Source of the DNA: Gammaproteobacteria bacterium
GTDB lineage: Bacteria; Pseudomonadota; Gammaproteobacteria; Enterobacterales; Permianibacteraceae
DNA: 64,000 bases
Assembly: GCA_016182845.1 (NCBI GenBank)
Contig: JACPFT010000015.1
Coordinates: 1-64,000, forward strand
Reading direction: 5' to 3'
Of this stretch, positions 51,901 through 64,000 are shown in pieces (within the stretch, counting starts at the first letter, position 1; each line of letters starts with the position of its first letter). The notes beneath the pieces were generated by a model. It saw only the letters and a list, made by a program, of their open reading frames with translations, was not told where the DNA came from and did not search any database. Position numbers and translations under genes: made by a program.

Positions 51901-51999
51901 CGTTCGTGGTGAGCTTGTCGAACCACGTTCGGCCCTGCCGCAAGGGGAATAGCCCATTCACCCTTCGACTGGCTCAGGACGAACGGGCTATTCCCCTTG
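51901..51999. repeat. Dispersed palindromic element, family B copy 1
   Basis: CGTTCGTGGTGAGCTTGTCG...and TTCGACTGGCTCAGGACGAA, plus the AAGGGGAATAGCCC / GGGCTATTCCCCTT arms. Same modules as the element at 63566-63733. The region 51863-52113 between the MscS channel and rimK holds little else. A partial family-B end (AAACGGCGTTACGC) continues to about 52017. Confidence 0.7.
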
Positions 52000-61184: not shown

Positions 61185-61880
61185 ATGCACTACCCCCAGC
61201 CTCTCGCCGCCGGCCGTTTCCTGCGCCGCTACAAACGCTTTTTCGCCGATATCGAAACCCCCGGCGGCATCATCACCGCCCATTGCGCCAACACGGGGTC
61301 CATGCGCAACTGCCTCGGCGAGGGCTGGACCGCCTGGTATTCCGACGTGGGCCCGGACACCAAGCGCAAGCTGCGCTACAGCCTGGAGCAGGTCCAGACC
61401 CCGGACGGCGCGCGCATCGGCCTCAACACCGGCCTGGCCAATGCCCTGGTGGCGGAGGCGATCCGCGCCGGACTCCTGCCCGGGATTCCTCGGGACTGCG
61501 AGCTGCGCCGGGAAGTCGCCTATGGTGAGGAAGGCAGCCGCATCGACCTCGTCGCCGATGGCTGTTACATCGAGGTGAAGAGCGTCACCCTGCGCGAAGA
61601 CGATGGCCGGGGCTATTTTCCCGACGCCCGCTCCGAGCGGGGCATTAAGCATCTGCGCGAGCTGGCGCGCTTGGCGCGAGATGGAATCCCGGCGCGCCTG
61701 GTCTATGCGGTGCAGCACACCGGCATCGCCAGCGTGCGCCCGGCGGAGCACATCGACCCGGCCTATGGCCAGGCCCTGCGCGCAGCAGCGTCCGCCGGCG
61801 TACACATCCAGGCCCTGGGCGCCGAGATCGACGCGCGCGGCATTCGGCTGGTGCGGGCGATTCCGGTGGAGCTCGCTTAG
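61185..61880 (+). CDS. sfsA: DNA/RNA nuclease SfsA
   Basis: 231 residues. Typical SfsA motifs: RRYKRFFADIETPGG, HCANTGSMRNCL, NTGLANALVAEAI, IEVKSVTLREDDGRGYFPDA and HLRELARLARDGIPARLVYA. First described from an effect on sugar fermentation, later linked to nuclease activity; the physiological role is unsettled. No clear ribosome-binding site because the repeat ends 20 bases upstream. The stop overlaps the convergent bufC stop by 4 bases. Confidence 0.95.
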   Translation: MHYPQPLAAGRFLRRYKRFFADIETPGGIITAHCANTGSMRNCLGEGWTAWYSDVGPDTKRKLRYSLEQVQTPDGARIGLNTGLANALVAEAIRAGLLPGIPRDCELRREVAYGEEGSRIDLVADGCYIEVKSVTLREDDGRGYFPDARSERGIKHLRELARLARDGIPARLVYAVQHTGIASVRPAEHIDPAYGQALRAAASAGVHIQALGAEIDARGIRLVRAIPVELA

Positions 61881-62656
61881 TCCCAGCTCAGGCCGCTCAG
61901 CCAGCCCGCATGCAGCCAGGTCTTGAGCAGGCTGGCGGCGCGCAGGGCCACGGCGCTCGGCTCATGCCAGGGCAGCAGCGCGGCGCAGACCTCGGGGAAG
62001 CCGCCGCCTCGGGCGAGCTGGGCGAAGGCCGCCGCCTCGTCGCTCTCCAGGCTGCGGTACTGGCAGACCCGCTCGGCATTGCGCCAGACGACGCTGGCCT
62101 GGGCTTCGGGCAGGCGCCGCGCCTCGGGTAGGGCCTCGCCCGCTTTCCAGGCCTTCCATAAGGCCAGGACGTTGAATTCGGATTCGACCCGCCACAGGGC
62201 CGGATGGAGCGCGAAGCTCAGGCTGGCCCAGGCCGCCGGCGGCAGAACCGCGATCTCGGCCTCGCCCAGGATCGGTGCCTCCGGGGCGTCGAAGACCTCG
62301 CAGAAGGCCCATTCGAAGGCCGCCAGTTCGGCCGCCCAGGGCCAGGCTTTCACGTTTTCCGGCTGCGCCAGGAAGGCCGGCAGCCGGGCGCCGAAATCCC
62401 GCAGGGTGAACGACGTAGAAGGATGCGTCGCCACATAGGCGGAAAACACGGCATCGGCCTCGGCGCCCAAGGCGGCCGCCAGGGCCGGAAAATCCTTGTG
62501 CAGCACGCCGGCCAGGCGCGCGCGATAGGCATGGGCATAGACCGCGAGGCGGGTGGGCGCATCGAAACCCGGCGTGCTGGGCACGGCCGCGAGGATGGCC
62601 GGGTCGCCGTGAAAAATGTACGCCTTGAGCGCTACTTGAGTTTGCGCGAGGTTCAT
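61877..62656 (-). CDS. bufC: BufC-like partner protein (DUF2063)
   Basis: 259 residues. N-terminal DUF2063 domain (about 5-100: NLAQTQVALKAYIFHGDPAI, YAHAYRARLAGVLHKDFPAL) thought to bind the precursor, and a C-terminal helical domain (about 125-255). In bufferin and methanobactin-type clusters this protein is the RiPP-recognition partner of the DUF692 enzyme. Start overlaps the bufB stop (ATGA). No cysteine-rich or catalytic motif is seen. Identification follows from domain and operon context. Confidence 0.85.
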   Translation of the reverse strand: MNLAQTQVALKAYIFHGDPAILAAVPSTPGFDAPTRLAVYAHAYRARLAGVLHKDFPALAAALGAEADAVFSAYVATHPSTSFTLRDFGARLPAFLAQPENVKAWPWAAELAAFEWAFCEVFDAPEAPILGEAEIAVLPPAAWASLSFALHPALWRVESEFNVLALWKAWKAGEALPEARRLPEAQASVVWRNAERVCQYRSLESDEAAAFAQLARGGGFPEVCAALLPWHEPSAVALRAASLLKTWLHAGWLSGLSWD

Positions 62657-63537
62657 GCCGCCTCCCGGCTCAGGACCGCCTCGCCCAGGCGGCGCGCCGT
62701 TTGCAGCTCTTCCGCCAGCTCGGCGAACTCCGGGAAGTTGTCGTCGCGCTCGATCATGGTCGACACCGCCCCGAAATGGCGCAGCGCCGTCTGGTACAAG
62801 TCCCAGACCTCCGCCCGGACCGGCTGATCATGGGTATCGACCAGGAAGCCGTCCGCCTCGCTATGGCCGGCCAGATGGAATTGCCAGACCCGCTCGGGCG
62901 GCAGGCCATGCAAAAAATCCTCCGGCTTGAAGCCGTGATTCACGGCGCTGACAAAGACATTGTTGATGTCCAGCAGCAGCAGGCAATCGGCCTCCTCGGC
63001 GATGGCGCTCAGGAACTGCCACTCGCTCATGCTCGACTGCCGGTAGCTCAGATAACTGGAGACGTTTTCCAGCAGGATGCGCCGGCCGAGAAAATCCTGG
63101 ACCTGGCGGACGCGGGCGACCACGTGCCTGAGGGCTTCCTCGGTATAGGGCAAGGGATAGAGATCGTGCAGGTTATTGCCCCCCGCGCCGGTGAAGCACA
63201 GGTGATCGGAGATCCACCGGGGCCGGGCGCGCTCGGCCAGGGTTTTCAAACGGGCCAGGTAGGCGAGGTCCAGCGGCTCCGTCCCGCCTATGGACATCGA
63301 CACCCCGTGCAGCACCAGGGGATAGCGCTCCGCCATGGCGTCCAGGACATGGAGCGGCTTGCCGCCGGGCACCATGTAGTTCTCCGAGAGCAGTTCCAGC
63401 CAGTCGACAGCCGCCTCGCCCTTGAGCAAGTCGTCGAAATAGCAGGGGCGCAGGCCCAGGCCGTAGCCGAGGAAGGGGCGGGGTTCGATGGGGGCGAGTC
63501 CGTGCATGGCGGAGTTATGCATCGCAGGGTTATGCAT
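62653..63537 (-). CDS. bufB: BufB-like MNIO enzyme (DUF692)
   Basis: Multinuclear non-haem iron oxidase that modifies cysteines of a RiPP precursor. 294 residues, TIM-barrel. Metal-binding and family motifs: LHGVSMSIGG, RWISDHLCFTG, LLENVSSYLSY, LLDINNVFVSAVNHGF, FHLAGHSEADGFLVDTHDQP. The N-terminus has a repeated MHNPAMHNSAMHG, giving three possible starts (63537, 63522, 63507); 63537 has a GGAA six bases upstream. Operon with bufA upstream and bufC downstream. Confidence 0.93.
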   Translation of the reverse strand: MHNPAMHNSAMHGLAPIEPRPFLGYGLGLRPCYFDDLLKGEAAVDWLELLSENYMVPGGKPLHVLDAMAERYPLVLHGVSMSIGGTEPLDLAYLARLKTLAERARPRWISDHLCFTGAGGNNLHDLYPLPYTEEALRHVVARVRQVQDFLGRRILLENVSSYLSYRQSSMSEWQFLSAIAEEADCLLLLDINNVFVSAVNHGFKPEDFLHGLPPERVWQFHLAGHSEADGFLVDTHDQPVRAEVWDLYQTALRHFGAVSTMIERDDNFPEFAELAEELQTARRLGEAVLSREAA

Positions 63538-63565
63538 GGAAAATTCCGAGGCGGGTGGGAAACGA

Positions 63566-63733
63566 ACCGGGGCGTTACACCTGATGCTGTTCAGTTAAGG
63601 GGGAATAGTCCGTTCGTCCTGAGCCTGTCGAAGGATGAACGGACTATTTCTCCGTGGTAACCACGCCATTCATGGTTCGACAGGCTCACCACGAACGGCT
63701 TAAGTGAATTGCATCAGGCGTAACGCCCCGGTT
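63566..63733. repeat. Long terminal-inverted-repeat element, family B copy 2
   Basis: A 35-base left arm (63566-63600, starting AACCGGGGCGTTAC) and a right arm (63699-63733) are inverted copies of each other, 31 of 35 identical. Between them lie nested palindromes shared with 51901-51999 (CGTTCGTCCTGAGCCTGTCG, TTCGACAGGCTCACCACGAA). It carries no gene, so it is MITE-like. It fills the bufA-bufB gap almost exactly. Confidence 0.85.
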
Positions 63734-63745
63734 CACGGGGGTGGC

Positions 63746-64000
63746 TTACTTGGTTTCTTCGTGCTTGTGCTGGCGCTCGACCTTGCCGCCCTTGTCGGTA
63801 CAGGCCTTTTCCGAGTCCATATGGACCCAGCCCTGGCCCTTGCACTCGGCGTGGCCCTTGCAGGCATTCTTGTCGGTCTTGCAGTCGTTGTGGCCCTTGC
63901 ACTCGTTGGTGCCCCAACATTGCACGCCCGCGTCATTGGCCTGGGCGGCGGTGATGGGGGCCATGGCGAACAGGCTGGCGGCGGCAACGGCAAAGGCGAT
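63746..64000 (-). CDS. bufA: BufA-like bufferin precursor (5' partial)
   Basis: Copper-responsive RiPP precursor. The start lies beyond position 64000; the frame enters mid signal peptide ([21 protein letters not shown]), then about 63 mature residues beginning NDAGVQCWG. It has six cysteines in the order CWGTNEC, CKGHNDC-like repeats (two CKGHxxC units), then a last Cys in [10 protein letters not shown], and a His/Lys/Glu-rich tail (QHKHEETK). This matches the bufferin precursor pattern of signal peptide plus repeated CxxxC-type units. bufB and bufC follow. A long inverted repeat separates it from bufB. Confidence 0.85.

Follow-up and report, generated by a model that had tools for sequence, protein, structure and literature searches.

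A cluster of three genes, bufA, bufB and bufC, at the end of a 64,000-nucleotide stretch of DNA from Gammaproteobacteria bacterium (family Permianibacteraceae; GenBank assembly GCA_016182845.1, contig JACPFT010000015.1, positions 1 to 64,000), referred to here as 'the window', is very probably an ordinary bufferin operon of the Buf2 type. Bufferins are ribosomally synthesized and post-translationally modified peptides (RiPPs). The gene content of the cluster, the family membership of its products, the clade of the enzyme, the RiPP recognition element (RRE)-like fold of the partner's model and the specificity residue were all computed here. The genome comprises 3.8 Mb in 26 contigs. The window is the first part of one of these (C21:1-64000), which continues to 77,645, and the cluster was read whole in an extended locus (L004; window position = L004 + 51999). 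The genes lie on the minus strand, within 61877-64000, in the order bufA, a 208-base gap, bufB and bufC, and the frames of the last two share an ATGA, the overlap that an earlier note on this DNA had described between DUF692 and DUF2063 genes. The same note recognized a bufABC cluster, which is borne out by family models for all three genes and by the place of BufB among Buf2-linked enzymes. It also took the cluster to be cut at the window end; the first 18 bases of bufA (six codons) do lie past it, at C21:64001-64018.

Precursor, enzyme and partner

The extended bufA frame encodes 90 residues: a 27-residue Sec-type signal, with cleavage placed by eye at AQA/ND, and a mature part of 63 residues, six of them cysteines. 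The secreted 63-residue cysteine-rich peptide of the earlier note is thus present as described, together with its CKGHNDC and CKGHAEC units and charged tail, and the signal peptide, the lack of which in the extended frame would have refuted the note's reading, is complete, again as judged by eye. The precursor scores 84.6 bits on the NCBIfam model BufA2 (cut-off 60, E = 4.2e-24), in an alignment that begins at residue 6 of the 89 submitted. The note had proposed a comparison with bufferin and DUF2282 models; apart from BufA2, there is no match at E 0.1 to any NCBIfam model, KCGExKCG included, nor to any in Pfam, DUF2282 included. The cysteines are spaced 5-5-6-5-13. Each of Cys2-Cys5 directly precedes a lysine; Cys1 and Cys6 do not.

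BufB scores 371.7 bits on the MNIO_BufB model (cut-off 310, E = 1.7e-111) and 367.3 bits on PF05114 (E = 5.1e-110), and falls under the NCBIfam cut-offs of HvfB, ApyH, MbnB and ChrH. A methanobactin-type enzyme was considered and rejected, the score on the MbnB equivalog model being 77.5 bits against a cut-off of 325. Alignment to 3BWW (E = 1.6e-55) preserves the HG, SDHL, EN, DxNN, HxAGH, DTH and ERD blocks. Three in-frame ATGCA starts open bufB (63500-63537; MHNPAMHNSAMHG), so the start assigned to it is provisional.

Three MNIO clusters are present in the genome, of the Buf2 (window), EGKCG and DUF2282 (Buf1) types, and their enzymes read ERDD, ERDF and EWDQ, respectively, at one motif. Published work bears on this motif: the residue next after the catalytic Asp is reported to be Phe in Lys-Cys enzymes but a second Asp in Cys-Lys enzymes, and the substrate Lys is proposed to contact the enzyme Asp (PMC13097082). 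We collected 130 MNIO frames in loci L001-L144, reducing to 105 distinct sequences, and labelled these by our own rules (phmmer matches to the precursors of the window and of the Buf1 cluster, or at least two GKCG): 54 are Buf2-linked, 16 Buf1-linked, 14 EGKCG-linked and 21 unlabelled. ERDD occurs in 42 of the 54 Buf2-linked enzymes and in none of the 16 Buf1-linked ones, which have neither ERDD nor ERDF and in 15 cases carry an EWD-type motif. ERDF occurs in all 14 EGKCG-linked enzymes; among the unlabelled ones, seven have ERDD and six ERDF. In a tree of the 105 sequences, BufB of the window lies inside a clade of 12 rows, all Buf2 (SH-aLRT, an approximate likelihood-ratio branch test, 96 in a quick tree; bootstrap/SH-aLRT 91/94 in a careful tree, with a bootstrap that had yet to settle). 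The earlier note would have given up its reading had the enzyme fallen outside the bufferin clade; in this tree, which is of the enzyme, it falls inside. Deeper branches are weak and the Buf2-linked enzymes do not form one clade, and the Buf2 labels need eight changes on the careful tree versus a mean of 35 in shuffles.

BufC matches PF09836 (DUF2063) at 66.9 bits (E = 1.9e-18). A PDB sequence search with it gave a chance-level match only (E 0.32), so a structural search was needed. An AlphaFold model built from 45 sequences (mean confidence, pLDDT, 96.4) matches 8hci_A (E 6.2e-07) and NGO1945 (3dee, E 5.4e-06); in both TglHI complexes, 8hci and 8hi7, it is chain A, taken as TglI, that matches (E < 1e-5). 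There is a weak match, too, to the lasso-peptide RRE protein TbiB1 with leader (5v1u_B; E 0.29, probability 0.99). Going by this model, BufC is a PME-type 1 partner, with a DUF2063 part and an RRE-like fold, a kind of partner associated with precursors that bear Sec signals (PMC12452194).

Table 1. Features of the bufABC locus and the two further MNIO clusters of the genome
Feature	Position	Strand	Basis
bufA2, Buf2-type bufferin precursor, 90 aa	63746..64000 (start C21:64018)	-	NF050166 Cu_RiPP_BufA2
bufB, MNIO (formerly DUF692) maturase, 294 aa	62653..63537	-	NF050167 MNIO_BufB, PF05114, 3BWW homology, tree
bufC, DUF2063 + RRE-like partner (PME-type 1, from model), 259 aa	61877..62656	-	PF09836, AlphaFold model
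Nested palindrome, 171 bases, between bufA and bufB	63564..63734	-	Inverted repeats I1-I3, fold energy
EGKCG/oxazolin-type cluster	L005 7714-9649, contig C24		Precursor passes KCGExKCG_twice, enzyme passes HvfB
Buf1 (DUF2282) cluster	L006 7744-9721, contig C3		Precursor passes DUF2282

Place among the bufferins

The locus shares with Buf2 bufferins (Buf_6/12Cys of PMC12452194) a signal peptide, six cysteines spaced 5-5-6-5-12/13, the bufABC order, a bufferin-group MNIO, a DUF2063-RRE partner and the lack of adjoining sigma/anti-sigma genes. No defining difference separates them; the window has an enlarged bufA-bufB palindrome and a tail of 17 residues after Cys6. Known as it is from sequence alone, it also resembles the captophorins, the Cys-Lys group of PMC13097082, in its CK motifs, its HNDCK and NACKG 5-mers, and the MNIO Asp at the proposed contact with the substrate Lys. 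With Buf1 (DUF2282) bufferins and with the EGKCG/oxazolin RiPPs (HvfA, fontiphorin) it has in common the enzyme and partner families and the signal peptide. The former differ in a precursor with four conserved cysteines that passes DUF2282 and in the EWD-type enzyme motif, the latter in EGKCG repeats, in which Lys comes before Cys, and in the ERDF motif.

How usual the precursor is can be judged from 73 distinct precursor cores, a set that leans to strong matches (hits of a class survey if above cut-off, plus loci from other searches). Six cysteines are found in 65 of these and the spacing C5C5C6C5C12-13C in 60; the cores begin at the pattern match, so that those with five and eleven cysteines (L015, L017, L107) may be undercounts. 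In the literature, six cysteines are given for 90% of Buf2 members (PMC12452194), and the set of common 5-mers put to the test in PMC13097082 includes both HNDCK and NACKG. A 17-residue stretch of the window precursor is identical, letter for letter, in L009, L010, L011 and L028, and L009, a relative from the same family, has a charged tail as well. Of the 274 genomes searched within the class, 51 score above the BufA2 cut-off, as do two of three within the family, the present genome being counted in both.

The earlier note went further and suggested a possibly new bufferin subtype. What speaks for this are the five His in the stretch from Cys1 to the C-terminus, the pair of CKGH units, and a tail longer than most, from which one might imagine another metal being bound through His. 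CKGHNDCK, however, occurs in 13 of the 73 cores (the window's included), CKGH at least twice in 15 of them, and tails after Cys6 span 8 to 37 residues among the six-Cys cores listed. We consider a subtype resting on CKGHxxC repeats and a His/Lys/Glu tail very improbable. Because six cysteines are normal for the family, HNDCK is a common motif already in print and CKGHNDCK occurs in 12 other precursors of the set, the locus is another member of the Buf2 family and not a new subtype. The converse error, of mistaking an EGKCG/oxazolin or Buf1 cluster for Buf2, might be thought easy in a genome that has both, with common enzyme and partner families. But the precursor of the window matches BufA2 alone among NCBIfam models, and those of the other two clusters pass KCGExKCG_twice and DUF2282 instead (the Buf1 precursor scoring 84 bits on DUF2282 and 26.7 of the required 60 on BufA2). 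The model scores refute such a misreading, whose likelihood is next to nil, and the window enzyme has ERDD rather than ERDF. The Buf1 enzyme, for its part, comes to 305.9 bits on BufB, against the cut-off of 310.

A bufferin locus that has decayed or is unexpressed, with a repeat insertion parting bufA from bufB, is a further thought to which we give little credence. Between the bufA stop and the first enzyme motif lie 277 bases, the third longest such distance among 53 Buf2 loci (median 115); a REP-like palindrome (after the repetitive extragenic palindromic elements) fills the gap; and a consensus scan found no sigma-70-like promoter around bufA in the stretch that it covered. Against this, none of the three frames is broken and each keeps its conserved motifs, the gap is longer still at two loci, and hairpins in the bufA-bufB gap are usual among the Buf2 operons examined, as described below.

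Several precursors in the survey depart from the common form. Duplicated, twelve-Cys Buf2 precursors occur in L066, L012, L107 (eleven counted) and L108, representing three genomes of the same order and Parashewanella; the second halves of those listed hold CKGHNDCK. In L065, L067, L069, L071 and L074 the Buf2 domain, preceded by a membrane-like segment, ends open frames whose provisional lengths are ~240-254 residues. Small lipoprotein-like precursors with CK motifs stand upstream of the MNIO in L079, L085, L093, L096, L097, L098, L102, L103 and L104 (e.g. ACKGMNACKGKHACKGKNACK in L085). They were missed by phmmer with the window precursor, and that of L085 scores 34.1 bits on BufA2, below cut-off. 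The MNIOs beside them form a weakly supported group of 18 rows in the quick tree.

A palindrome and a recurrent stem-loop

The 208-base gap between bufA and bufB folds to -109 kcal/mol (z -12.3; none of 200 shuffles as good). Its 171-base palindrome consists of 36-base outer arms that enclose a pair of REP-like repeats. With up to two mismatches allowed, the repeat unit has 130 occurrences across the genome (reversed-pattern control, 0); the arms have no other genomic match at up to two mismatches, and two at three mismatches, equal to control. Inverted pairs of the unit, written as TTCGACAGGCTCANNACGAAC, to which the pattern counted genome-wide is close, lie at 51902-51984 and 63612-63696, giving four matches in the window at up to three mismatches versus 0.02 expected by chance. 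Known RNA families were rejected: the only hits, to RF02901 (31.3 bits, threshold 97) and RF03679 (20.9 bits, threshold 100), are sub-threshold and are taken as matches that a palindrome gives by chance. The consensus scan revealed no intrinsic terminator around bufA in the stretch covered. Possible functions of the palindrome are as a brake on bufBC expression or as a hairpin protecting the mRNA.

Folding is a wider property of this gap. From the 54 Buf2-labelled rows, 53 could be used for gap distance, 49 for whole-gap folds (gaps under 40 bases dropped) and 48 for folds and stem counts in the 100 bases that follow the precursor stop (those under 60 dropped). Whole gaps give z < -3 in 16 of 49 loci. 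The first 100 bases give z < -2 in 42 of 48 operons and z < -3 in 21, as compared with six and one for the 100 bases before bufA, and two and none for enzyme coding sequence. Stems of at least seven pairs occur in 35 of the 48 gaps (upstream 12, coding 10), and stems with a T-rich tail in 21 (upstream 2, coding 0). Gaps of EGKCG operons reach z < -3 in five of six cases, versus one of seven for Buf1.

We suggest, tentatively and at rather less than even chances, that in Buf2 operons a stem-loop conserved in structure and variable in sequence follows the precursor gene and lowers read-through into bufBC, or separates their mRNA, so that the precursor would be made in large excess; here, the hairpin would have been enlarged by the nested REP-like pair. 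Four points count against reading too much into this. The window's own first 100 bases give a z of merely -1.8, because they hold about half of the palindrome; consensus scan and stem count alike find no T-run terminator after its bufA; related operons are not independent samples; and other RiPP operons are well known for attenuating hairpins behind their precursor genes. The intercistronic stem-loop is therefore a lead rather than a demonstrated mechanism. Neither 'stem-loop' nor 'terminator' appears in the main texts of PMC12452194 and PMC13097082, a pair that does not include the founding bufferin paper.

Maturation, surroundings and significance

The chemistry, the export and the copper role proposed for this operon are carried over from published work on relatives. 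BufA2 would be made with its Sec signal, and BufC would hold it, together with that signal, for the enzyme. As an iron-dependent oxidase, BufB would then convert the cysteines that precede lysine, Cys2-Cys5, to 5-thiooxazoles, with the loss of four hydrogens each; four are predicted because of the CK motifs and the proposed contact between substrate Lys and enzyme Asp. In Buf1, the central cysteines are modified and the first and last are disulfide-linked (PMC12452194). By analogy, Cys1 and Cys6 probably stay unmodified here and may likewise be joined by a disulfide. The predicted monoisotopic mass of the mature peptide, with four thiooxazoles and the disulfide, is ~6961.96, versus 6980.10 unmodified; conversion of all six cysteines would give 6955.91. 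The peptide would be exported by Sec, trimmed, and would sequester excess periplasmic copper, which, going by relatives, is the best-supported role. Among the 65 six-Cys cores, Lys follows Cys2 in 62, Cys3 in 39, Cys4 in 48 and Cys5 in 58; the residue after Cys1 is Tyr, Met or Trp in 38, and that after Cys6 is Asp or Glu in 35 and Lys in eight.

Some facts sit less comfortably with an ordinary Buf2 operon matured in this way. Lys follows Cys3 least often, so the Cys2-Cys5 rule is weaker there, and according to PMC12452194 the modifications of Buf2 have yet to be identified. Twelve of the 54 Buf2-labelled enzymes lack ERDD (the motif being read by a simple pattern), and two of them, L026 and L117, group with Buf1 enzymes in the tree. 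BufC reaches 52 bits on NCBIfam HvfC against a cut-off of 142, the model being named for another subfamily. No DoxX gene is found by Pfam in the open reading frames beside the operon. Finally, a related EGKCG cluster of Microbulbifer escaped detection in proteomes whether or not copper was added (PMC12538549), and it would therefore be unsafe to ascribe a copper-induced role to all clusters.

Past bufA, on the same strand, lie genes for a ThiF-family protein, PrmC, an unassigned product that begins like a lipoprotein, RF-1 and glutamyl-tRNA reductase. On the other side, beyond bufC, come a convergent sfsA, its 3' end overlapping that of bufC by 4 bases, and genes for a Rieske protein and a ferritin-like protein. 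These eight flanking reading frames, one of them without a Pfam match, include no regulator, DoxX or transporter by that measure; the upstream regulators or transporters that the earlier note supposed hidden beyond the window end are not in the next five frames. In a same-family genome (G002, L077), the stretch before bufA is, by eye, unlike the neighbours found here. In the Buf1 cluster of the present genome, a membrane protein after the partner reads like a candidate DoxX. Three large captophorin precursor types co-occur in one genome.

Bufferins are a recently recognized and common class of copper-handling peptides, to which this locus adds one member. As a natural test set the genome is of modest value: the residue proposed to select the substrate is not the same in its Buf2, Buf1 and EGKCG enzymes. 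And if the stem-loop acts, it would explain how the ratio of precursor to enzyme is set.

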